From the NCBI GenBank assembly GCA_017461245.1, contig JAFTYW010000047.1, positions 1 through 54,536 of the forward strand: DNA of 54,536 nucleotides, read 5' to 3'. The position numbers and the translations under genes are program-made. The stretch is from Oscillospiraceae bacterium. Its GTDB lineage: Bacteria > Bacillota > Clostridia > Oscillospirales > Ruminococcaceae. Position 1 is the stretch's first letter. Each line of letters starts with the position of its first letter. This document shows, one piece after another, positions 4,306 through 49,920 of this stretch. The notes under the pieces were generated by a model that saw only the letters and a list, made by a program, of their open reading frames with translations, ran no database searches and was not told the origin of the DNA.

Positions 4306-6129
4306 TTATTCAACAGTTACAGATTTTGCAAGGTTTCTCGGCTTATCAACATCACAGCCTCTTATGACCGAGGTGTGATAGGCAAAAAGCTGGATAAAGG
4401 GTGCTAAGGCAAGCGGCATAAAAAGGTCTGAGATCTCGGGCATTAGAACAAGGTTGTCATAAACGTCGTCAGCAATGGCGGCATCAGTGCGGCAGACTAA
4501 AGTTACCGCAGCGCCGCGTGCCTTGACCTCTTTTACATTGCTTATCATTTTCTCAAAAAGCGGGGTCTGGGTTGCTATGGCAATGACCGGAACGCCGTCT
4601 GTCACAAGCGAGATCGTGCCGTGCTTAAGCTCACCCGCGGCGTAAGCCTCGCTGTGAATATAGGAAATTTCTTTAAGCTTTAGCGAGCCCTCGACCGAAA
4701 GCGAATAATCCATTCCCCTGCCGATGAAAAAGAGGCTCTCGGTGTTCTTATTCTGCTCAGCAAGCTTTTTGCAGGTGGGGTCAAGGTCACGTATAAGCCT
4801 TTCAATCAGCTTTGGCATAGCGGCAAGCTCAGCGCTCTTCTCAGCGACCTCGTTTTCATTCATTGTACCTTTAACGAGCGCTAAGCGCAGAGCAAAAAGA
4901 TACATAACGGCGCTCTGCACGCTATAGGCCTTTGTGCTTGCCACCGCAATTTCGGGACCCGCCGAGGTAAAGAGTGCGCCGTCCGCCTCTCTTGCGATCG
5001 ACGAGCCGACCACGTTGACAACTGCGAGGGTATACGCCCCCATTTTCTTAGCAAGACGCAGGGCGGCGAGTGTGTCTGCCGTTTCGCCCGACTGGGAAAT
5101 TACAATAACCAGATCGTTTTTATCGACGATGGGATTTACATACCGAAACTCTGAGGCAACGCTGACTTCGACGGGTGTTCTCGCAAGCTTCTCAATGGCA
5201 GTCTTGCCTATAAGCCCCGCGTGCATAGCCGTTCCGCAGCCGACTATGTGAATTTTATTTACCGCCGCAAGTCGTTTATCACCAAGCGAGAGATTTAAAA
5301 CATCGGGCAGACCGCCGATCATATGCGGCGAGATGGTGTTTTTAAGCGCTTCGGGTTCCTCGTATATCTCTTTTAACATAAAATGCTCAAAGCCGCCCTT
5401 TTCGGCAGCCTCAAGGCTCCAATTTGCCTCAAAAACCTCTTTATCTATACTCTCGCCCTCTAAACTGAGCACGCTGACACCGCTTTCTTTGAGCACCGCG
5501 ATTTCGTTTTCGTCAAGAAGATAATAGCGGCGGGTGTATTTCAAGACCGCGGGAATATCCGACGCGACAAAGCTCTCGCCGTTAGACAACCCGACGATAA
5601 GCGGGCTATCGCGGCGCACGGCGTAAATCTCATCTGGGCGGTCTGAGAACAAAATCGCGAGAGCGTACGAGCCGCGTATTTTGCGAGTTAGCTCAGCTAT
5701 CGCCTTTATCGGTTCGCCCTTGTAAAGCCTATCTAAAAGGGCGGCGGCAGTTTCGGTGTCGGTCTCTGAGGCAAAGGTATAGCCGCCCTTTTCAAGATCC
5801 TTTTTAAGCTCAATATAGTTTTCAATAATTCCGTTATGAACTAGTGTAACTCTACCCGCAGAGTGCGGGTGGGAGTTAGCATACGACGGCTCTCCGTGGG
5901 TTGCCCAGCGGGTATGCCCTATTCCGCAGTTGCCATAAGGGGTGCCTGCGCTTTTCATATACTCCTCTAAATCAGAGAGTCTGCCCTTTTCCTTTCGCAC
6001 AGCTATTTCTCCGTCACTGAAAACGGCGATGCCCGCCGAGTCATAGCCGCGATATTCAAGGCGGCGAAGTCCTGAGATAAGGATATCTGCCGCCTCCTTA
6101 CTTCCTACATAGCCCACTATTCCACACAT
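4306..6129 (-). CDS. glmS: Glutamine-fructose-6-phosphate aminotransferase (isomerizing), GlmS
   Basis: This makes glucosamine-6-phosphate from fructose-6-phosphate and glutamine, the first committed step to UDP-GlcNAc, in the cytoplasm. The protein has an N-terminal class II glutaminase domain (MCGIVGYVG, nucleophile Cys2; GHTRWATHG; SETDTE) and two SIS domains (ISQSGETADTLAALR; STKAYSVQ), and ends in PRNLAKSVTVE. At 607 residues it has the usual GlmS length. ATG 6129 is chosen because Cys2 must become N-terminal and AAGGAG lies 8 nt upstream; a TTG two codons earlier sits only 2 nt after that site. It has its own promoter with an operator-like motif shared with the XRE-GlmM operon. No glmS ribozyme was recognised in the roughly 66-nt leader. 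Confidence 0.97.
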   Translation of the reverse strand: MCGIVGYVGSKEAADILISGLRRLEYRGYDSAGIAVFSDGEIAVRKEKGRLSDLEEYMKSAGTPYGNCGIGHTRWATHGEPSYANSHPHSAGRVTLVHNGIIENYIELKKDLEKGGYTFASETDTETAAALLDRLYKGEPIKAIAELTRKIRGSYALAILFSDRPDEIYAVRRDSPLIVGLSNGESFVASDIPAVLKYTRRYYLLDENEIAVLKESGVSVLSLEGESIDKEVFEANWSLEAAEKGGFEHFMLKEIYEEPEALKNTISPHMIGGLPDVLNLSLGDKRLAAVNKIHIVGCGTAMHAGLIGKTAIEKLARTPVEVSVASEFRYVNPIVDKNDLVIVISQSGETADTLAALRLAKKMGAYTLAVVNVVGSSIAREADGALFTSAGPEIAVASTKAYSVQSAVMYLFALRLALVKGTMNENEVAEKSAELAAMPKLIERLIRDLDPTCKKLAEQNKNTESLFFIGRGMDYSLSVEGSLKLKEISYIHSEAYAAGELKHGTISLVTDGVPVIAIATQTPLFEKMISNVKEVKARGAAVTLVCRTDAAIADDVYDNLVLMPEISDLFMPLALAPFIQLFAYHTSVIRGCDVDKPRNLAKSVTVE

Positions 6130-6201
6130 ACACAAATCTCCTTAAGGTGTATTCACTTTTATAATTTTTCCTTTACGCAGTAAATTATACCGTTACGCTA
6201 T

Positions 6202-6267
6202 ATACTATAAAAAACATTGGAGATTTACAACCAACTTGGGCTTGAAATTTTTGCAACCATTGGTTAC
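6202..6267 (-). promoter_or_regulatory. glmS promoter with GGTTGC operator motif
   Basis: On the minus strand, reading toward glmS, the order is GTAACC (6267-6262), 3-nt spacer, GGTTGC (6258-6253), 20 nt, GGTTGT (6232-6227). The last half-site overlaps the -35 box TTGTAA (6230-6225). The -10 box TAGTAT (6207-6202) follows after 17 bp. The same arrangement, 33 of 41 nt identical over the half-sites and intervening bases, is found at 23700-23765 upstream of the XRE-GlmM fusion. The likely reading is an operator overlapping -35, occupied by the XRE domain of that protein. Whether binding represses or activates cannot be told from sequence. Confidence 0.7.
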
Positions 6268-6296
6268 AAGCCTTTTCTAATGTTGCGCAGAATAAT

Positions 6297-6328
6297 AAAA
6301 AACGGCGAGCCGTTCGGCTCGCCGTTTT
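6297..6328 (-). terminator. Terminator of the rpsF-ssb-rpsR operon
   Basis: A 13-bp perfect stem (6299-6311 with 6316-6328), loop GTTC, with a T6 run on the minus strand, starts 6 bp after the rpsR stop codon. Confidence 0.9.
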
Positions 6329-6333
6329 ATTTT

Positions 6334-6576
6334 TTAGTTGTTTACGTAAGGCAGGAATGCAAGGTGTCTTGCACGCTTGATTGCCTTAGTGAGTTCTCTC
6401 TGATGGTATGCGCAGGTTCCTGTTACTCTTCTGGGAATGATCTTGCCGCGCTCTGAAATGTACTTTCTGAGCTTTGCAACATCTTTATAATCGATCTGAG
6501 CTCCAGCCTTATCAACGCAGAATGCGCAAACCTTTTTACGACCCTTACGGCCAAAAGATCTCTCGGTCCTTTCCAT
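6334..6576 (-). CDS. rpsR: 30S ribosomal protein S18
   Basis: The 80-residue basic protein has the S18 core ([25 protein letters not shown], then [12 protein letters not shown]). The N-terminal CAFC pair is part of the zinc-type (C+) form of S18. S18 pairs with S6 on the 30S platform. The gene is last in the conserved rpsF-ssb-rpsR operon. AAGGAGG precedes the ATG. Confidence 0.97.
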
Positions 6577-23699: not shown

Positions 23700-23765
23700 G
23701 CAACCTTAGGTTGCAAAATTTTCAAGCCTCAGTTGGTTGCAAATATTTTTTACATACTGTACTAT
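23700..23765 (+). promoter_or_regulatory. Promoter/operator of the XRE-GlmM operon (same motif as glmS)
   Basis: A perfect 15-bp palindrome GCAACC-TTA-GGTTGC (23700-23714) is followed after 20 nt by GGTTGC (23735-23740), whose end forms the -35 box TTGCAA (23737-23742). The -10 box TACTAT (23760-23765) follows after 17 bp. The half-site spacing of 26 bp, the 20-nt interval (17 of 20 identical) and the -35/-10 placement all match the glmS promoter at 6202-6267. It is a candidate binding site for the XRE domain encoded directly downstream. Confidence 0.75.
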
Positions 23766-23816: not shown

Positions 23817-25439
23817 ATGAAACTCGGTGAAAAAATAACCCAACTCCGACTTTCAAAAGGTCTGTCGCAGGAATCACTTGCCGAAAAGCTTTCGGTTTCG
23901 CGACAGGCGGTTTCAAAATGGGAAATGGGGCAGGCTCAGCCTCAGATAGACAATGTATTGCAGCTCTGCGCTCTTTTCTCGGTTTCTGCAGACCAGCTCT
24001 TGTTCGACGAGATAGAAATAGAGGGCGCGGGCGGCAAGAAAAGCGCCAAAAACAAATATTTCGGCACAGACGGCTTCAGAGGCGAGGCTAACTTAAACCT
24101 TACCTCAATGCAGGCATACAAGGTCGGCAGATTTTTAGGCTGGTACTACCGCTCTGCCCTTTCCGGATGTCAAAACGCAGGCTACAGGCCGCGCATAGTG
24201 ATAGGAAAGGATACGAGGCGCAGTAGCTACATGCTTGAATACTCGATAGCCGCGGGAATAACGGCATCGGGCGCCGACGCCTATATGCTCCACGTCACCA
24301 CAACGCCGAGCGTATCATACGTTACTCGGCAGGATGAGTTTGACTGCGGCATTATGATAACCGCCTCGCACAATCCTTTTTATGACAACGGAATCAAGGT
24401 TATAAACAAGTACGGCGAAAAGCTTGACGACTCGACTACCGCCTTGATCGAGGCTTACATTGACGGTGATATGTCGGCATTAGGCCTCGGTTGCGGTGAT
24501 CTACCTCTGGCTCACCGAGAAAAGATAGGTTGCATAGTCGACTATGTTTCGGGCAGAAACCGCTATGTCGGTTACCTCATTTCGCTTGCCTCCAACTCCT
24601 ACAAAAAGCTCAAAATCGGACTTGACTGCGCAAACGGAGCTTCTTGGATGATTGCAAAGGCGGTTTTCAACGCGCTCGGCGCACAGACCTATGTTTTGGG
24701 CGACGAACCCGACGGGCTTAATGTAAACTTAGGTTGCGGCTCGACCAGCATAGAAAAGCTTTGTGCCCTTGTTAAAAGGGAGCATCTTGACGTCGGTTTT
24801 GCATTTGACGGCGACGCTGACCGCTGCATTGCAGTTGACGAAAACGGCGACATCGTCGACGGCGACAAAATGATGTATATCCTCGCAAACCGCCTAAAAT
24901 CTAGGGGTATGCTAAGCTCCGACACCGTTGTTGCGACGGTTATGTCAAACAGCGGATTTTTTGCCTCGCTCAAAAAAGCGGGCATAAACTGCGTTCAGAC
25001 CAAGGTTGGCGACCGCTTTGTTTACGAGAAGATGCAAAGTAGCGACTACAGCCTTGGCGGCGAGCAGTCGGGGCACATTATTTTAAAGAAATACGCCACC
25101 ACGGGTGACGGAATTCTCACCGCAATTATGCTGACCGAAGAGATGTGCGACAGAAAGAGCAGCCTTGCAAAGCTTTCTGAGGCAGTTTTCCTCTATCCTC
25201 AGCACACAGTAAACCTCAAGGTCAAGGACAAGGCGGCGGTAAGCGGCGACAAAGAAGTTGTTGCCGCGCTTAAAGAGGTCGAGAGCCTTATCGGCGAAAA
25301 CGGCAGAGCGCTGCTTCGCGAGAGCGGCACCGAGCCTGTAGTGCGTATAATGATCGAGGCAGAAACGCGCGAAAAGTGTGAAAAATACGCCGATATGATC
25401 GCAAAGGCTATTATAGAAAGAGGGCATACTATTGAGTAA
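23817..25439 (+). CDS. XRE DNA-binding domain fused to phosphoglucosamine mutase (GlmM)
   Basis: The 540-residue protein has an XRE helix-turn-helix (residues 5-60: ITQLRLSKGLSQESLAEKL, VSRQAVSKWEMGQ), a short linker, and a full-length alpha-D-phosphohexomutase of the GlmM type from residue 80 (KYFGTDGFRGEAN). All active-site loops are intact: TASHNP with Ser184, DGDADR (331-336), GGEQSGH (414-420) and the phosphate loop RESGTEPVVR (501-510). It should convert GlcN-6-P to GlcN-1-P and bind DNA. ATG 23817 follows AAGGAGG; an in-frame ATG at 23733 lies inside the promoter motif and is rejected. It overlaps the next gene by 8 bp. Ordinary GlmM is about 450 residues with no DNA-binding domain. 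The natural inference is a bifunctional trigger enzyme; a phosphomannomutase activity is possible. Confidence 0.93.
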   Translation: MKLGEKITQLRLSKGLSQESLAEKLSVSRQAVSKWEMGQAQPQIDNVLQLCALFSVSADQLLFDEIEIEGAGGKKSAKNKYFGTDGFRGEANLNLTSMQAYKVGRFLGWYYRSALSGCQNAGYRPRIVIGKDTRRSSYMLEYSIAAGITASGADAYMLHVTTTPSVSYVTRQDEFDCGIMITASHNPFYDNGIKVINKYGEKLDDSTTALIEAYIDGDMSALGLGCGDLPLAHREKIGCIVDYVSGRNRYVGYLISLASNSYKKLKIGLDCANGASWMIAKAVFNALGAQTYVLGDEPDGLNVNLGCGSTSIEKLCALVKREHLDVGFAFDGDADRCIAVDENGDIVDGDKMMYILANRLKSRGMLSSDTVVATVMSNSGFFASLKKAGINCVQTKVGDRFVYEKMQSSDYSLGGEQSGHIILKKYATTGDGILTAIMLTEEMCDRKSSLAKLSEAVFLYPQHTVNLKVKDKAAVSGDKEVVAALKEVESLIGENGRALLRESGTEPVVRIMIEAETREKCEKYADMIAKAIIERGHTIE

Positions 25440-26091
25440 GATAAAAACCCGCGATTTGTTTGACTGCTCAGTCCCCTATTTAAGCAAGCTTTTTGATGGG
25501 TGCGAATATCCTTGGCAGATGCTCCCTAAAATAAAGGATCACATCCTTGCGCTTATAGAAATGGGCATTGAGGGCTTTACCGAGCTTAAAGCGGGCGTTC
25601 TTGTTGGTAAAAACGTTAAAATTGCCGATTTTGTTACCATTGAAGCGCCCGCAATTATCGGGCACAATACCGAAATACGCCCAGGGGCATTTTTGCGGGG
25701 CAATGTTATTACCGGCGAAAACTGCGTTTTGGGAAACTCCTGCGAGTTTAAAAACTGCATACTTTTAAATAATGTTCAGACCCCGCACTACAACTACGTA
25801 GGCGATTCTGTTCTCGGAAACTTTGCTCACATGGGCGCGGGAACTGTTTGCTCAAACCTTAAATCTGACGGCAAGGCAGTTGTTATCCACGCCGACGAGG
25901 AGATAGAAACTTCACTTCGAAAGGTCGGCGGCATTTTGGCCGATAGGGCCGACATCGGTTGCGGCTGCGTTATAAACCCAGGCACGATAATCGGCAGAGG
26001 CACCTCGGTCTATCCCCTTACCTCTCTGCGCGGCGTTTACGGCGAAAACCTTATCGTCAAAGCGCAGGACAAGGCAGTTTTAAGAAGATAA
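25432..26091 (+). CDS. GlmU-like left-handed beta-helix acyltransferase
   Basis: The 219-residue protein has hexapeptide repeats from about residue 55 (IADFVTIEAPAIIGHNTEIRPGAFLRG) and the GlmU C-terminal signature YVGDSVLGNFAHMGAGTVCSN. It lacks the GlmU N-terminal uridylyltransferase. It therefore resembles the glucosamine-1-phosphate acetyltransferase half, using acetyl-CoA to make GlcNAc-1-P from the product of the fused GlmM. Many clostridial homologues are loosely named UDP-GlcNAc pyrophosphorylase. The start is TTG 25432 within the end of the XRE-GlmM gene, indicating coupling. The GlmU Lys/His catalytic residues were not mapped exactly. Confidence 0.82.
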   Translation: MSKIKTRDLFDCSVPYLSKLFDGCEYPWQMLPKIKDHILALIEMGIEGFTELKAGVLVGKNVKIADFVTIEAPAIIGHNTEIRPGAFLRGNVITGENCVLGNSCEFKNCILLNNVQTPHYNYVGDSVLGNFAHMGAGTVCSNLKSDGKAVVIHADEEIETSLRKVGGILADRADIGCGCVINPGTIIGRGTSVYPLTSLRGVYGENLIVKAQDKAVLRR

Positions 26092-43266: not shown

Positions 43267-44298
43267 TTATCTCTGAACTCGGCCGCTGCCGTCGCCGCCT
43301 GCTAAGGCCTCGACCTCTGCTCTGGTAACTAAGTTAAAGTCACCGGGGATGGTGTGCTTTAATGCAGAAGCTGCAACGCCAAACTCGAGAGCCTCTTTAA
43401 AGTTCTTGCCATCTAAGAATCCGCAGATGGTGCCGCCGGCAAAGCTGTCGCCGCCGCCGACACGGTCAACAATGGGGTGAACTCTGTACTCCTTGGAGTG
43501 ATAGAACTCCTTGGTGTCTCTACTATAGATACAAGCCGACCAGCCGTTATCGGAGGCAGACTTTGAAACGCGGAGAGAGGAAACAACATACTCGAAATTG
43601 AACTTCTCTACCATCTGCTCAAAGATGCTCTTATAGCCTGCGAGCTCAAGTTCGCCGCTTGTAACATCGGTCTCGCCGGGCTTGAAGCCGAGAACCTTTT
43701 CAGCGTCCTCTTCGTTACCGATACAAACGTCAACGTACTGCATAAGATTTGTCATAACTTTCTGAGCCTTTTCGCTCGACCAAAGCTTCTTTCTGAAGTT
43801 TAAGTCAACCGAAACCTTAACGCCGTGCTTTTTTGCGGCCTTAAGTGCAATTTCGGTAAGCTCTGCAGCCTTATCAGAAACGGCGGGGGTGATTCCTGTA
43901 AAGTGGAACCAATCTGCTCCCTCGAATATTGCGTCAAAATCAAAGTCAGCAGCATCTGCCTCAGAGATCGAGGAATGTGCTCTGTCGTAAACAACGTTTG
44001 AAGCACGCATACTTGCGCCTGTCTCTAAGAAATAGATACCAAGTCTTTCGCCGCCACGGGCAATGTTCTTAGTTTCTACGTTCATTTTGCGAAGTGCGGC
44101 AACTGCGCAGTCGCCGATGGGATTTGCGGGGACCTTTGTTACAAACTCGGCATCGTGGCCGTAGTTTGCGAGCGACACAGCAACATTTGCCTCGCCGCCG
44201 CCATAGCAAACGTCAAACTCGTCTGCCTGAATAAATCTCTCGTTACCGGGAGTAGAAAGTCTGAGCATAATTTCGCCCATTGTTACAACCTTTGCCAT
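43267..44298 (-). CDS. kdgK: 2-keto-3-deoxygluconate kinase
   Basis: The 343-residue PfkB-family kinase has N-terminal GEIMLRLSTPGNERFIQAD, YGGGEANVAVSL, and the C-terminal catalytic RVGGGDSFAGGTICGF with the KDG-kinase signature HTIPGDFN. It phosphorylates KDG to KDPG. It begins 3 bp after eda and is co-transcribed with it. With UxaC, UxaB and UxaA from the divergent operon it completes hexuronate catabolism. Confidence 0.95.
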   Translation of the reverse strand: MAKVVTMGEIMLRLSTPGNERFIQADEFDVCYGGGEANVAVSLANYGHDAEFVTKVPANPIGDCAVAALRKMNVETKNIARGGERLGIYFLETGASMRASNVVYDRAHSSISEADAADFDFDAIFEGADWFHFTGITPAVSDKAAELTEIALKAAKKHGVKVSVDLNFRKKLWSSEKAQKVMTNLMQYVDVCIGNEEDAEKVLGFKPGETDVTSGELELAGYKSIFEQMVEKFNFEYVVSSLRVSKSASDNGWSACIYSRDTKEFYHSKEYRVHPIVDRVGGGDSFAGGTICGFLDGKNFKEALEFGVAASALKHTIPGDFNLVTRAEVEALAGGDGSGRVQR

Positions 44299-44301
44299 TA
44301 T

Positions 44302-44946
44302 TTATGCACCTCTTGCTTCCTTAATTTTTGCAATAAACTCTTTTGCAGTTGCGGTAATAGCAGCATAGTCGCCTGTCTTTGCGCCTGCGGTGAGCGAGGA
44401 GCCTGCGCCTACTGCTACTGCGCCTGCCTTGATCCACTTATCAACGTTAGAAACGTCAACACCGCCTGTGGGCATAAGCTTTGCCTGAGGCAGAGGACCC
44501 TTGATGTCCTTTATAATTGTGGGGCCAAAAAGGTCAGCAGGGAAAATCTTGCAGATGTCTGCTCCTGCTTCCATAGCAGTGATAACCTCGGTAATGGTCA
44601 TACAACCGGGCATATAAGGAACCTGATATCTGCCGCAAAGCTTAGCGGATGCTAAGTTAAAGCCGGGGCTTACGATATAGTTTGCACCCGAGAGAATTGC
44701 AATTCTTGCAGTTTCACTATCAAGAACTGTGCCAGCTCCGAGCATCATCTCGCCTTTATTGTATTTTGCGGCAAGAGCCTCGATAACCTTGTGAGCGCCG
44801 GGAACTGTGAAGGTAAGCTCAATACCTGTGCATCCACCCTCGAGGCATGCATCAGAAATTCTGATTGCCTCCTGTGCGTCCTTTGCACGAACTACGGCAA
44901 CAAGACCGCAGTCAGTAAGTCTTTTAATTACCTGTGATTTTTCCAT
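44302..44946 (-). CDS. eda: 2-keto-3-deoxy-6-phosphogluconate aldolase
   Basis: The 214-residue class I aldolase shows AVVRAKDAQEAIRISDACLEG, GIELTFTVPGA, GAGTVL, the Schiff-base Lys strand CKIFPADLFG and KLMPTGGVD. It splits KDPG into pyruvate and glyceraldehyde-3-phosphate. It is the first gene of the leftward eda-kdgK operon. Confidence 0.95.
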   Translation of the reverse strand: MEKSQVIKRLTDCGLVAVVRAKDAQEAIRISDACLEGGCTGIELTFTVPGAHKVIEALAAKYNKGEMMLGAGTVLDSETARIAILSGANYIVSPGFNLASAKLCGRYQVPYMPGCMTITEVITAMEAGADICKIFPADLFGPTIIKDIKGPLPQAKLMPTGGVDVSNVDKWIKAGAVAVGAGSSLTAGAKTGDYAAITATAKEFIAKIKEARGA

Positions 44947-44963
44947 TTTTGGTCCTCCTTGAA

Positions 44964-44992
44964 TTTATAATTGAACTAAGTTAAGCATACAA
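44964..44992 (-). promoter_or_regulatory. Promoter of eda-kdgK
   Basis: TTGTAT (44992-44987), 17-bp spacer, TATAAA (44969-44964) on the minus strand, close to the AAGGAGG site before eda. The 187-bp gap up to the AraC stop codon could hold regulator sites, none of which is clear. Confidence 0.5.
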
Positions 44993-45133
44993 AACGGGTG
45001 AGCTCTTTTAAATAGAAAAAAGCAACTTAAATATGGATTTTTTTGATAAATCTCCGCTACTTCTCTATTTTTATGGTAACACACTAATGCCCTCTTTTCA
45101 ATAGGATTTAATGTGCTGTTTGTAATGATTTCA

Positions 45134-45943
45134 TTAGTTTTTTGATTTTTTTTGTATTTTTTTCGGCGAAACCCCGAACATCTTTTTAAATCTGACGGAA
45201 AAATAGTTGCTATCGTTAAAGCCGCATTTTTCCGAGACCTCGGTTACGGTGATCTTAGCGTTTTCCTTTAAAAGCTGCTCTGCCTTTTTAAGCCGAAGTA
45301 TATTTACATACTCGCAGAAGCCAAAACCCGTTTCCTTTTTAAACTCTCTTGAAAAATGCTCGGGACTTAACGAGAACATCTTTGCAATATCGGTGAGCGA
45401 AAGCGGCTCGGTGTAATTTTTCTGGACAAAGTTTACCGCCTTTTCAACGTACTCGTTTTTTACCTCTTTATCGTCGTAGGTGTTGGGATTTCTGAGCATT
45501 GTGAAAAAGAGCATACCCGTAAGACAGGATAGAACGTCATCCGAAAACTCGCTGCCCCTTGTGTATTCCTCCTCGATCTCCTTTAAAAGCGAGCATATCT
45601 TTTGGCTCGCCTCTTCATTTCTATAGATATAGGTAAGCTTTTTAAAGCGGGATATTACAGAGGCGGGAATGTAACGTGAGGTGCAGTTAATGAGCATCCT
45701 CGAATACTTACTGTTCTTATATAAGGTGTTGTGGATAACGCCTGCGGGAACAACTGCAATATCTCCCTCTAAAAGCTGATAGGACTTGTTGTCGATAAAA
45801 TAATTGCAGCTGCCTTTTTCGAGATAGTATATCTCAAAAAGGTCGTGATAATGCCTTTGCATTGTCCACTCGCCGCTATCCTCATTCTTTACGTCGTGAC
45901 TGAAAAAGAACGAGGCATTTTCGGGATAATTTACAAGTTTCAT
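45134..45943 (-). CDS. AraC family regulator of hexuronate genes (predicted)
   Basis: The 269-residue protein has an N-terminal cupin (RHYHDLFEIYYLEKGSCNYFI; LLEGDIAVVPAGVIHNT) and a C-terminal AraC HTH pair (LSLTDIAKMFSLSPEHFSREF; ITVTEVSEKCGFNDSNYFSVRF; FGVSPKK). The Met at 45943 is preferred on alignment and an upstream GGTGATGG site; ATG 45973 is possible. It lies between the eda-kdgK and uxaBAC operons and is divergent from uxaB, so it probably controls both. Confidence 0.9.
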   Translation of the reverse strand: MKLVNYPENASFFFSHDVKNEDSGEWTMQRHYHDLFEIYYLEKGSCNYFIDNKSYQLLEGDIAVVPAGVIHNTLYKNSKYSRMLINCTSRYIPASVISRFKKLTYIYRNEEASQKICSLLKEIEEEYTRGSEFSDDVLSCLTGMLFFTMLRNPNTYDDKEVKNEYVEKAVNFVQKNYTEPLSLTDIAKMFSLSPEHFSREFKKETGFGFCEYVNILRLKKAEQLLKENAKITVTEVSEKCGFNDSNYFSVRFKKMFGVSPKKIQKKSKN

Positions 45944-46040
45944 ACCATCACCGTTTTTAAAATAGCATATCATATCAATAAAGTCAAGAAATATTACACA
46001 ATTTGCCGATATTTTAAAGGAAACATATATTTATTTGATA

Positions 46041-46046
46041 TATAAT
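46041..46046 (+). promoter_or_regulatory. Putative -10 box of the uxa operon
   Basis: TATAAT lies 35 bp before uxaB. The bases at the -35 position (AGGAAA, 46018-46023) do not match the consensus, consistent with activation by the divergent AraC protein. Confidence 0.5.
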
Positions 46047-46080
46047 CAAGGTATAAAAGCTTAAAAAGGAGCGATTTATT

Positions 46081-47346
46081 ATGAAAGAAAAAATTATTCA
46101 GTTTGGCGAAGGCGGTTTCCTTCGTGGATTTGTTGATTGGTTTATAAACATTGCTAACGAGAAAGCAGACTTTGGCGGAAAGGTCGTTGTCGTTCAGCCT
46201 ATCGAAAAGGGAATGTGCGATATGCTTACCGCGCAAAACTGCGTTTACACCCACATCTGCCGCGGCAGCGAGGGAGTAGATATTCAGAAAATTGACGTTA
46301 TTTCAAGATGCGTTAAGCCCTACGACGATTTTGACGCTTATATGGCTCTTGCGGAGAACCCCGATTTTCGCTTTATCGTTTCCAACACCACCGAGGCGGG
46401 AATTACCTTTGACGAGCGTGACAGCTTTTCTGACAAGCCTGCCTCCTCTTTCCCCGGAAAGCTTACACAGCTTTTGTTTAAAAGGTTTGAGTTGGGTCTT
46501 AACGGCTTTGTTTTCCTGCCCTGCGAGCTTATTGACAAGAACGGCGCAAACCTTAAAAAGTGCGTTCTTAAGTATGCTGACCTGTGGCAGCTCGGAGATG
46601 CCTTTAAAAACTGGATCGAAAACGAGAACATTTTCTGCAATACATTAGTTGACCGCATCAACACAGGTTACCCCAAGGGCGAGGAGCTAAACCTCGGCTA
46701 CGAGGACAATATGGTTAACACATCGGAGTATTTTCACCTCTGGGTCATCGAGGGATATAACGGCCTATTTGATGAGATTCCCTTTGACAAGTGCGGACTT
46801 AACATTATTCTTACCGACAACCTTGAAATGTACCGCACAAGAAAGGTCCGCATCCTAAACGGCGCCCACACCTCGCTGGTTCCCTACGCTCTGCTTTCGG
46901 GCTTTGACACCGTTAAGTCCTGCGTTGACGACGAAAAGATGCACGAGCACATCAGAAAGTGCGTTTTTGACGAGATAATCCCCACCCTCGATCTGCCCCG
47001 TGAGGAGCTTATCGACTACGCCGAAAACGTTCTCACCCGTTTTGCAAATCCCTACATTAAACATATGCTTGCTTCAATTGCTCTTAACTCTGTAAGCAAA
47101 TTCAAGGTCAGAGTTCTGCCCTCGATCACCGAGTACATAAAGAGATTTAACAAGATGCCCGAAACACTCATCTTCTCGTTTGCAAAGCTTATCGACTTTT
47201 ACAGAACTGATATGACAAACGATGATGCTGAGGTCGTTGCCTTTATGAAGACTGCCTCGGCCCATGACATTCTTAAAAACACTTCTCTTTGGGGAGAGGA
47301 CCTATCCTATCTTGAAAGCGAGATAAGCAAATATGTTAATAAATAA
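46081..47346 (+). CDS. uxaB: Tagaturonate reductase (altronate oxidoreductase)
   Basis: The 421-residue mannitol-dehydrogenase-family enzyme shows QFGEGGFLRGFVDW (nucleotide-binding region), SNTTEAGI, LPCELIDKNG, NTLVDRINTGYP and the active-site RILNGAHTSLVPYALLSG. It reduces D-tagaturonate to D-altronate with NADH. It starts the uxaB-uxaA-uxaC-GH2 operon and overlaps uxaA by 14 bp. Confidence 0.95.
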   Translation: MKEKIIQFGEGGFLRGFVDWFINIANEKADFGGKVVVVQPIEKGMCDMLTAQNCVYTHICRGSEGVDIQKIDVISRCVKPYDDFDAYMALAENPDFRFIVSNTTEAGITFDERDSFSDKPASSFPGKLTQLLFKRFELGLNGFVFLPCELIDKNGANLKKCVLKYADLWQLGDAFKNWIENENIFCNTLVDRINTGYPKGEELNLGYEDNMVNTSEYFHLWVIEGYNGLFDEIPFDKCGLNIILTDNLEMYRTRKVRILNGAHTSLVPYALLSGFDTVKSCVDDEKMHEHIRKCVFDEIIPTLDLPREELIDYAENVLTRFANPYIKHMLASIALNSVSKFKVRVLPSITEYIKRFNKMPETLIFSFAKLIDFYRTDMTNDDAEVVAFMKTASAHDILKNTSLWGEDLSYLESEISKYVNK

Positions 47347-48703
47347 ACTTGATAACGTTGAGGTAAACATCGAAAACGGCCACAAATACGCCATTTGCGA
47401 CATAAAGAAAGGCGAAAACGTTATAAAATACGGCCAGCCTATAGGCCACGCCATTTGCGACATAAAGGCGGGCGAGCACGTTCACACCCACAACATAAAG
47501 ACCAACCTTTCGGATAAGCTTGAATACAGCTACAATCCCGCAGACCTTTCTTTTGAGAAAATCGACTCTGAGCTTACCTTTAAAGGCTACGTCCGTGAAA
47601 ACGGCGATATCGGAATCAGAAACGACATTTGGATCGTAAACACCGTCGGTTGCGTTAACAAGACGGCCGAAAAGCTCGCGCATCTTACGGGGGCAAAGCA
47701 CTTTCCGCACCCCTTTGGCTGTTCACAGCTTGGCGACGATCAGCTTTACACCCAAAAAATTCTTGCCGCAATGGTGCATCACCCCAACGCCGCAGGCGTT
47801 TTAGTTCTCGGTCTTGGTTGTGAAAACAACAACATTGAGGCTTTCAAAAAGGTTTTGGGTGACTATGACAAAAAGAGAGTTAAGTTTTTGGTCGCTCAGG
47901 AGTTTGACGACGAGATCGCCGAGGGCGTAAGGCTTATAAACGAGCTTAAGGAATACGCGGCAGGCTTTGAGAGAGTCGATATTCCCATCTCTAAACTCAA
48001 AGTGGGTCTTAAGTGCGGCGGTAGCGACGGATTTTCGGGCATCACCGCAAATCCCCTCGTTGGCAGATTTTGCGACTCTTTAGTTAAGATGGGCGGCTCC
48101 TGCATTTTAACCGAGGTTCCCGAAATGTTCGGCGCAGAGCATTTACTTATGGACAGATGCGTCGACCGCGAGACCTTTGACAAAACCGTTGCCCTTATCA
48201 ACAACTTTAAGGACTACTATACAAGGCATAATCAGGTTATATACGAAAATCCCTCGCCGGGTAACAAGGCAGGCGGAATTACGACCCTTGAGGAAAAATC
48301 GCTCGGCTGCGTTCAGAAGGGCGGCCTTTCCCCCGTTGTTGACGTTCTTGACTGTGGTGAGAGAATTTCCAAAAACGGTCTTTCGCTTTTAAATGGACCA
48401 GGTAATGACATTGTTGCGGTTACAAACCTTATGGCCTCGGGCGTTCACCTAATCCTCTTTACAACGGGACGAGGAACTCCCTTAGGCTCGGCCGTTCCGA
48501 CGGTCAAAATTGCTACAAACAACGCACTTGCCACCAAAAAATCCTCCTGGATAGACTTTGATGCTTCTCCGGTTTTACAGGGCAAGGAGTTGACGGATGA
48601 GCTTTTAAGCTTTACAATAGAGGTAGCGAGCGGAAAACTTGCTAAAAACGAAGAAAACGGATATGAAGAAATTTCTATATTTAAGGATGGTGTTACACTG
48701 TGA
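47333..48703 (+). CDS. uxaA: Altronate dehydratase
   Basis: The 456-residue protein has a short N-terminal SAF domain (KYAICDIKKGENVIKYGQPI) and the UxaA catalytic part (GDIGIRNDIWIVNTVGCVNKTA; HPFGCSQLGDD; GLGCENNN; LKCGGSDGFSGITANP; TTGRGTPLGS). It dehydrates D-altronate to 2-keto-3-deoxygluconate. It is about 35-40 residues shorter than common UxaA, mainly in the loop between the first SAF strands. The stop overlaps the uxaC start (GTGA). Confidence 0.94.
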   Translation: MLINKLDNVEVNIENGHKYAICDIKKGENVIKYGQPIGHAICDIKAGEHVHTHNIKTNLSDKLEYSYNPADLSFEKIDSELTFKGYVRENGDIGIRNDIWIVNTVGCVNKTAEKLAHLTGAKHFPHPFGCSQLGDDQLYTQKILAAMVHHPNAAGVLVLGLGCENNNIEAFKKVLGDYDKKRVKFLVAQEFDDEIAEGVRLINELKEYAAGFERVDIPISKLKVGLKCGGSDGFSGITANPLVGRFCDSLVKMGGSCILTEVPEMFGAEHLLMDRCVDRETFDKTVALINNFKDYYTRHNQVIYENPSPGNKAGGITTLEEKSLGCVQKGGLSPVVDVLDCGERISKNGLSLLNGPGNDIVAVTNLMASGVHLILFTTGRGTPLGSAVPTVKIATNNALATKKSSWIDFDASPVLQGKELTDELLSFTIEVASGKLAKNEENGYEEISIFKDGVTL

Positions 48704-49920
48704 GTTTTATCAAAGACGATTTTATGCTTAAAAATGAGACCGCAAAGGAGCTTTATTCGGCCGTCAAGGATCTTCCCATCATTGACTACCACTGCCACTT
48801 AGTTCCCAAAATGATTGCCGACAACCACAAGTTCAAAAACGCTTTTGAGCTTTTCCTTGGCGGCGACCACTACAAATGGCGCCAGATGCGCACAAACGGA
48901 GTTGACGAGCGCTTTATCACAGGCGACGCCGACGAGTATGACAAGTGGGTCGAGTTTGCTAAGACCATGCCCATGCTTATCGGAAATCCCCTTTATCACT
49001 GGACTCATCTTGAGCTGAAAAGATATTTCGGCATTGAAGAGGAGCTTTCTGAGAAAACCGCAAAGGATATCTGGGACAAGGTAAACGACTGCCTTAAAAA
49101 AGACGAGTTCAGAGCTCAGGAACTTATAAAGAAGTCAAACGTTGAGGTTATCTGCACCACCGACAACCCCTACGACAACCTTGAATACCACAAAGCCTTA
49201 AAGGGCTTCTCGGCAAAGATACTGCCCACCTTCCGCCCCGACTTATCCGATATCAAGAGCGATATCACCGAGAGAATGGACTATTTTAACGAAAACGGCT
49301 GCCGCCTTTCTGACCACGCCGTAGACGTTCTTGATGACGATATGATCGACAAGCTTGTATTTCTCGGCGAGGAGTACGCAAAGCGCGGCTGGACAATGCA
49401 GCTTCACATCGGCGCGCTGAGAAACAATAACACAAAGATGTTTGAGCGTCTTGGCGCTGACACAGGCTTTGACTCGATAAACGATTTCCAAATTGCAGAG
49501 GGCATTTCAAAGGTTCTCAATGCACTTGAATCCAAAGATATGCTCCCCAAGACCATTCTTTACACCTTAAATCCCAAGGACAACTACGTTCTCGGAACTA
49601 TGCTCGGAAACTTCCAGGGCGGCGGCATCCCCGGCAAGATCCAGTTTGGCTCGGGCTGGTGGTTTAACGACCAGCGCGACGGAATGGAAAGTCAGATGCG
49701 CGCCCTCTCAAACCTCGGTATGATCTCCCGCTTTGTCGGAATGCTTACCGACTCGAGAAGCTTTGTTTCCTATCCCAGACATGAGTATTTCAGACGAATT
49801 CTCTGTAACCTCTTAGGCAAGTGGGTCGAAGAGGGCGAATATCCTAAGGATATGGATACCCTTGTAAAAATCGCAAGCGGCATCTGCTACTACAACGCCA
49901 AAGAATACTTTAAATTTTAA
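48700..49920 (+). CDS. uxaC: Uronate isomerase
   Basis: This 406-residue amidohydrolase-fold enzyme shows DYHCHLVPKMIADN, GNPLYHWTHLELKRYFGI, NVEVICTTDNPYDNL, GCRLSDHAVDV, LHIGALRNNNTKMFERLG and WWFNDQRDGMESQM. It isomerises galacturonate to tagaturonate (and glucuronate to fructuronate). The GTG start at 48700 is supported by AAGGATGG and by the family N-terminus (DDFMLKNETAKELY). It is about 60 residues shorter than typical UxaC; the segment missing between TFRPDLSDI and the FNENGCR helix accounts for most of this. Confidence 0.95.
   Translation: MSFIKDDFMLKNETAKELYSAVKDLPIIDYHCHLVPKMIADNHKFKNAFELFLGGDHYKWRQMRTNGVDERFITGDADEYDKWVEFAKTMPMLIGNPLYHWTHLELKRYFGIEEELSEKTAKDIWDKVNDCLKKDEFRAQELIKKSNVEVICTTDNPYDNLEYHKALKGFSAKILPTFRPDLSDIKSDITERMDYFNENGCRLSDHAVDVLDDDMIDKLVFLGEEYAKRGWTMQLHIGALRNNNTKMFERLGADTGFDSINDFQIAEGISKVLNALESKDMLPKTILYTLNPKDNYVLGTMLGNFQGGGIPGKIQFGSGWWFNDQRDGMESQMRALSNLGMISRFVGMLTDSRSFVSYPRHEYFRRILCNLLGKWVEEGEYPKDMDTLVKIASGICYYNAKEYFKF

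Follow-up and report, generated by a model that had tools for sequence, protein, structure and literature searches.

A predicted operator shared by glmS and a gene for an XRE-GlmM fusion protein in gut Clostridia

The described system closest in position is the glmS ribozyme, a metabolite-sensing RNA that, like the operator predicted in this study, lies between rpsR and glmS; amino-sugar feedback on glmS is presumably the purpose that both share. Whereas the ribozyme is an RNA, a protein and a DNA operator are predicted here, and no match to the ribozyme family (RF00234) was found anywhere in the assembly. Trigger enzymes, such as NadR, BirA, and PutA, carry a DNA-binding domain besides their enzyme part and control their own pathway. 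The XRE-GlmM protein of this locus likewise combines a DNA-binding domain with an enzyme domain whose motifs are intact and has a predicted site at its own operon. NagC and NagR/NagQ, which regulate glmS or nag genes, share with it the transcriptional control of amino-sugar genes, but they are ROK or GntR proteins without a GlmM part, whereas the Pfam and NCBIfam matches of XRE-GlmM were to HTH/XRE and phosphohexomutase models. An XRE-type domain ahead of an enzyme fold also occurs in BzdR, where a shikimate-kinase-like domain has lost its activity and senses benzoyl-CoA (PMC3602430). In contrast to this inactive enzyme part, XRE-GlmM keeps its catalytic motifs, and the assembly showed no second GlmM (next listed match at 26%). 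Among the matches listed in a search of open-access literature, no description of an XRE-GlmM fusion, of its operator, or of any other GlmM-type trigger enzyme was found. A pathway-controlling enzyme with a DNA-binding domain is a known kind; this particular enzyme, its operator, and the exchange of a ribozyme for a protein seem to be new.

The window, i.e., the whole analyzed stretch of 54,536 nucleotides, belongs to an assembly of 1.77 Mb in 56 contigs (88% complete). The arrangement GNAACC-N3-GGTTGC-N20-GGTTGY, which a preliminary description had reported ahead of glmS and xre-glmM, was present exactly twice in the window: at 6267–6227 on the minus strand and at 23700–23740 on the plus strand. 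The two 41-mers were identical at 33 of 41 positions, the figure given originally. Neither a loose pattern nor a 45-nt pattern with up to three mismatches detected further sites in the assembly, and this restriction to two sites supports, by comparison rather than by experiment, the earlier proposal of a two-operon regulon. The glmS gene (4306–6129, minus strand) encodes a glutamine--fructose-6-phosphate transaminase (TIGR01135, 760 bits) and was assigned the ATG at 6129 as its start, in favor of which a TTG at 6135 was set aside. The xre-glmM gene (23817–25439, plus strand) encodes 540 residues, comprising an HTH_3 domain (residues 9–61; PF01381, 51.8 bits vs. a cut-off of 23) and a phosphoglucosamine mutase (residues 80–532) that scored as a complete GlmM (TIGR01455, 489.4 bits vs. 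an equivalog cut-off of 447.55). Its end is overlapped by a gene with a TTG start (25432–26091, plus strand) for a left-handed beta-helix hexapeptide acyltransferase similar to the acetyltransferase half of GlmU.

The catalytic motifs of the mutase part (TASHNP, DGD-DR, GGE-SGH, and R-SGTEP) were invariant in all 42 fusions aligned, out of 82 XRE-GlmM sequences, and those for the serine, metal, sugar, and phosphate aligned with the solved GlmM 7ojr. Matches to 44 solved sequences were obtained, none of which extended over the HTH part; its recognition-helix residues V27–Q30 and S33–E36 were invariant among the aligned fusions. Because the catalytic motifs are intact and accompanied by an HTH, we expect XRE-GlmM to be bifunctional, acting both as an enzyme and as a DNA binder. 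The two other genomes of the genus, G001 and G002, carried unfused GlmMs that were 45 and 44% identical to the mutase part, respectively. The XRE-GlmM query gave 10 matches in all in the window's own assembly, including further HTH matches.

The last half-site of the motif had been taken to form the −35. This was correct with respect to the 17 bp that separate the −35 from the −10, and was refined in that the hexamer, TTGTAA or TTGCAA, begins inside GTTGGTTG. The third element itself belongs to a second dyad, CAA-N6-GTTG, of which it is the right half. The spacing was the usual one in 58 of the 77 XRE-GlmM promoters scoring above 20 bits, and in 39 of these CAA was found nine bases ahead of the second GTTG. 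Fifteen promoters were longer by one base between the elements; CAA was at −9 in six and at −8 in three of them, and none kept it at the old distance from dyad 1. The four promoters with other spacings had no CAA at −9. Since CAA shifts together with the second GTTG, the second element is a unit with the geometry of dyad 1, located about 22 bp away, and a lone half-site was rejected on this pattern. Across the 77 promoters, the −35 was a TTG overlapping GTTGNTTG with the consensus TTGAAA, and the best TATAAT-like −10 was located 17 bp past it in 44, giving a core consensus of TTGAAA-N17-TATAAT with dyad 2 adjoining the −35.

On the minus strand ahead of glmS, predicted dyad 1 (GTAACCAATGGTTGC) spans 6253–6267 and predicted dyad 2 (CAAGCCCAAGTTGG), the unit recognized in the spacing variants, spans 6231–6244; these are followed by the −35 TTGTAA (6225–6230), placed by the 77-promoter consensus, and the −10 TAGTAT (6202–6207), 17 bp further. 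A terminator-like hairpin of the upstream rpsR was read at 6295–6326 on the same strand. The leader of approximately 66 nt reported for glmS is consistent with a transcription start about 7 nt past the −10. The corresponding parts of the xre-glmM promoter, on the plus strand, are dyad 1 (GCAACCTTAGGTTGC, 23700–23714), dyad 2 (CAAGCCTCAGTTGG, 23723–23736), the −35 TTGCAA (23737–23742), and the −10 TACTAT (23760–23765), again with 17 bp in between. Relative to the start, the dyad centers are predicted to fall at about −65 and −43.

The likeness of the two promoters could in principle reflect chance or a neutral copy, which we consider very improbable. The motif had no match in 100 shuffles of the window, and no control site was found in 394 genomes (see below). 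When scored with a weight matrix built from XRE-GlmM promoters, the glmS site, which lies outside the training set, reached 35.5 bits, compared to 12.3 bits for the highest-scoring unrelated position in the window and to a maximum of 26.8 bits (median 13.1) in 60 simulated windows; the window's xre-glmM site, part of the training set, scored 42.1 bits. Chance was rejected on these shuffles, controls, and simulations. Recent copying of one promoter could account for the shared spacer letters, but the TTCAA common to both forms the left half of dyad 2 and is conserved in this role in other species.

The preliminary description had recognized no ribozyme in the glmS leader, and the covariance search it suggested confirmed this: RF00234 gave no match in the window at the Rfam gathering score and none in 6080–6350 at E ≤ 10. 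Together with the assembly search, this led us to reject a ribozyme hidden in the short leader. RF00234 was present in 21 of 61 genomes, including G001 and G002, in both of which it was located between rpsR and glmS, directly upstream of the latter (L049 and L044). The order rpsF-ssb-rpsR-glmS-azlC-azlD was common to the window and G002, with identities of 92, 94, 95, 76, 80, and 80%, respectively; rpsF-ssb-rpsR-glmS was also found in G001, whose contig ends inside glmS. This synteny indicated a single locus, with an RNA control element in G001 and G002 and a predicted DNA one in the window. The proposal that the operator replaces the ribozyme thus gained comparative, not experimental, support, and control of glmS seems to have passed from an RNA to a protein. 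Within one genus, the glmS locus has a metabolite-sensing ribozyme in some genomes and a predicted protein operator in another, which makes it a natural experiment in RNA-to-protein switching. A misbinned contig was considered and rejected, given the 80–95% identity of the glmS flanks to G002. The RF2 gene of the window shared 94% identity with its G002 counterpart and no more than 66% with those of the compared genomes outside the genus, which places the contig in this genus. In G002, no empty site for xre-glmM was found near RF2; the corresponding stretch shares RF2 alone with the window.

Scanning of GTDB species genomes gave 536 related stretches, of which the 80 best were kept. All 80 contained XRE-GlmM fusions (72–80% identity), and 54 of them have record titles that refer to a gut site of goat, deer, sheep, or water buffalo. 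No full-length fusion was found among 43 loci on viral contigs. Two of the 80 loci, L105 and L101, come from contigs of only 3.0 and 5.5 kb, respectively, which are possibly misbinned. Adding the window and G052 gave 82 upstream regions, 21 of which contained the strict core AACC-N3-GGTT. One locus (L106) is cut at the first residues and has no upstream sequence, leaving 81 scorable promoters. A site above 8 bits was present in 80 of these 81 (median 38.3), a count that is descriptive because these promoters had also served to train the matrix. The predicted operator is therefore found at the gene's own promoter across species, as in an autoregulated operon. Conversely, none of 28 loci with an unfused GlmM carried the motif (best score 12.6 bits), including one, L017, with almost no upstream sequence. 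This contrast between fused and unfused promoters supports, at the level of comparison, the claim that the regulon is run by XRE-GlmM. Over both strands of the 80 loci (1.6 Mb), a single unrelated place exceeded 16 bits (20.3, in L069).

The unfused GlmMs of L016–L019, which are among the 28 control loci and come closest to the fusion, were 51–60% identical to the mutase domain of XRE-GlmM and had neither HTH nor operator; they are likely a sister lineage of the fusion's mutase. In L019, a gene for a GlmU-like acyltransferase precedes GlmM. Among the fused loci, the L119 promoter had no site, and those of L089 and L117 had weak ones (13.5 and 14.5 bits), despite unchanged recognition-helix residues; L101 is one of the fusions outside the alignment.

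On balance, we consider it fairly probable that the motif is the operator of XRE-GlmM and that the protein uses it to repress its own operon and glmS when amino-sugar phosphate is plentiful. In this reading, XRE-GlmM combines a phosphoglucosamine mutase, which converts GlcN6P to GlcN1P, with a DNA-binding domain of the lambda-repressor type, and its dimers would bind the two dyads adjoining the −35 of both promoters and hold these down, most likely when GlcN6P, the substrate, or else the product is plentiful. It would be the protein counterpart of the glmS ribozyme of the sister species, and GlmM itself is proposed as a new sensor of amino-sugar supply. Comparison across genomes brought out the predicted operator, its tie to the promoters of xre-glmM and of glmS or nagB, the exchange with the ribozyme at one locus, and the catalytic motifs; direct binding, repression over activation, and the ligand are what we infer. 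This model can be tested directly on the 80 promoters and their spacing variants, and on the three species in which the operator is weak or missing.

The same protein and operator could also work with the opposite sign, XRE-GlmM activating both promoters with dyad 2 bringing it into contact with sigma. At lambda PRM, CI bound at OR1/OR2 activates in this manner, touching sigma next to the −35. Dyad centers near −65 and −43 would suit an activator, as would the imperfect hexamers of the window (TTGTAA/TAGTAT for glmS and TTGCAA/TACTAT for xre-glmM), but the 77-promoter consensus should need no help, and such a near-consensus core promoter speaks for repression. Activation is accordingly regarded as rather unlikely, and a repressor as more likely.

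The gene content behind xre-glmM pointed to a wider regulon. Counting genes on the same strand and close behind, for which a single operon transcript is assumed, nagB was present in 45 of the 80 loci, glmS in three (L116, L121, and L123), both in one (L097), and neither in 24, while seven were too short. In 32 of the 45, nagB comes after the acyltransferase gene. One or both genes were thus in cis at 49 of 80 loci and not in every genome, and the 24 loci with neither had no constant third gene. The operator preceded the best nagB in one of 11 genomes read from this last class. A nagB above the family cut-off was present in 57 of 58 XRE-GlmM genomes, a count that includes both G226 and G069, which have the same coordinates and look like one genome. 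Separate nagB genes with an operator of their own were found in G308 (L233) and, with a weaker site of 26.4 bits, in G089 (L241); the encoded proteins scored 262.5 and 396.7 bits, respectively, against the TIGR00502 cut-off of 236.9.

A genome-wide search for glmS covered 50 of the 80 genomes (G061–G110, i.e., L056–L105) and found it in nine; it was not found in G052 or in six further XRE-GlmM genomes, one of which is the G226/G069 double. Single absences are weak evidence because the genomes are MAGs, some of them far from complete, and the best 80 loci are a selection rather than a census. The motif had been expected before glmS in relatives with XRE-GlmM. This held for L097, where glmS lies in the operon, and failed for the other eight of the nine genomes, in which glmS had no linked operator and, in one case, had a ribozyme. 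Four of these eight carry nagB in the xre-glmM operon (L077, L093, L095, and L098). A strict regulon, with the operator at every glmS of XRE-GlmM genomes, was rejected on these grounds; since glmS was without the operator in eight of nine genomes and nagB is commoner, the wider regulon is better named after the step between Fru6P and GlcN6P, mostly in cis.

XRE-GlmM would, on the best reading, be a trigger enzyme for its own operon and often for the gene linking Fru6P and GlcN6P. The feeder gene under its control would be glmS in the window's species and may in most others be that of an NagB which, in a gut rich in ammonia, works in the aminating direction; operon-encoded NagB is a candidate source of GlcN6P in the many gut species without a detected glmS (41 of the 50 searched). 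We tentatively propose that in this gut Clostridia lineage an active GlmM, loaded with GlcN6P or with the bisphosphate intermediate of its reaction, reports flux to the promoter of the GlcN6P-forming gene, mostly an aminating NagB and here a glmS whose ribozyme has been displaced. In the species lacking glmS, the operon could instead serve amino-sugar salvage, with GlcNAc taken up, NagB burning the surplus, and the operator tuning the use of GlcN6P. This is conceivable, though somewhat short of probable. The near-universal nagB would fit it, as would Akkermansia, which has no GlmS, requires GlcNAc, and has an NagB that makes no GlcN6P under physiological conditions (PMC5902328); a biosynthetic NagB is uncertain for the same reason. 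Against salvage, glmS takes the same place behind xre-glmM in L116, L121, and L123, and the regulated gene in the window is glmS, which only makes GlcN6P.

Scans beyond the XRE-GlmM loci placed the motif in a broader context. A looser motif gave 11 sites in 10 of 61 genomes, with four control hits: two in the window, one at the G052 copy of xre-glmM, five ahead of further XRE genes, whose products have helices of the QAVSKWE or RAVSKWE type, and three elsewhere. A 40-nt pattern with up to three mismatches gave 17 sites in 14 of 394 genomes of the order and no control hits. Seven of the 17 precede xre-glmM, seven other XRE-type genes (two of which, L223 and L224, have frames that leave the domain early), and one each glmS, nagB (G308), and a Gfo/Idh oxidoreductase gene (G338); two of the three that do not precede an XRE-type gene thus precede enzymes interconverting Fru6P and GlcN6P. 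Since the dyad also precedes other XRE regulator genes, it marks an XRE class rather than XRE-GlmM alone. In a further search, whose matches were annotated in part, G066:C6, G081:C22, G087:C2, and three matches in G091 were not xre-glmM promoters, and three control hits were obtained.

These sites, and the further HTH matches in the window's assembly, raise the alternative that both promoters are read by a different XRE regulator of the cell and that the fusion's HTH is one candidate of several. We regard this as quite improbable: the site goes with fused and not with unfused GlmM, and as the assembly holds no third copy, no other XRE gene there bears the operator.

The G338 site is a perfect operator match (L230, 1501–1540) about 210 bp ahead of the Gfo/Idh gene, whose product had UDP-GlcNAc 3-dehydrogenase as its best match, far below the cut-off. 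G338 was also the sole genome of 58 without an nagB match.

A second palindrome, approximately GTAAAY-N4-RTTTRC, was observed about 70 bp upstream of the operator, 174–200 bp before the xre-glmM start. With this pattern, chosen after looking, it occurred in 23 of 78 loci compared to 0.5 expected, 21 of them at 174–200 bp: L056–L060, L066, L070, L071, L075, L077, L079, L082, L089, L091, L093, L096, L100, L110, L119, L132, and L133. An earlier pattern of other spacing had matched in one of 78 loci, and a palindrome of the GTAAAY-N4-RTTTRC type was absent before xre-glmM in the window. It is possibly a distal operator or the site of another regulator. Finally, the contig that carries xre-glmM and glmS also contains, at 43267–49920, a cluster resembling hexuronate catabolism, with ORFs that we take to resemble KDG kinase, KDPG aldolase, tagaturonate reductase, altronate dehydratase, uronate isomerase, and an AraC-type regulator.
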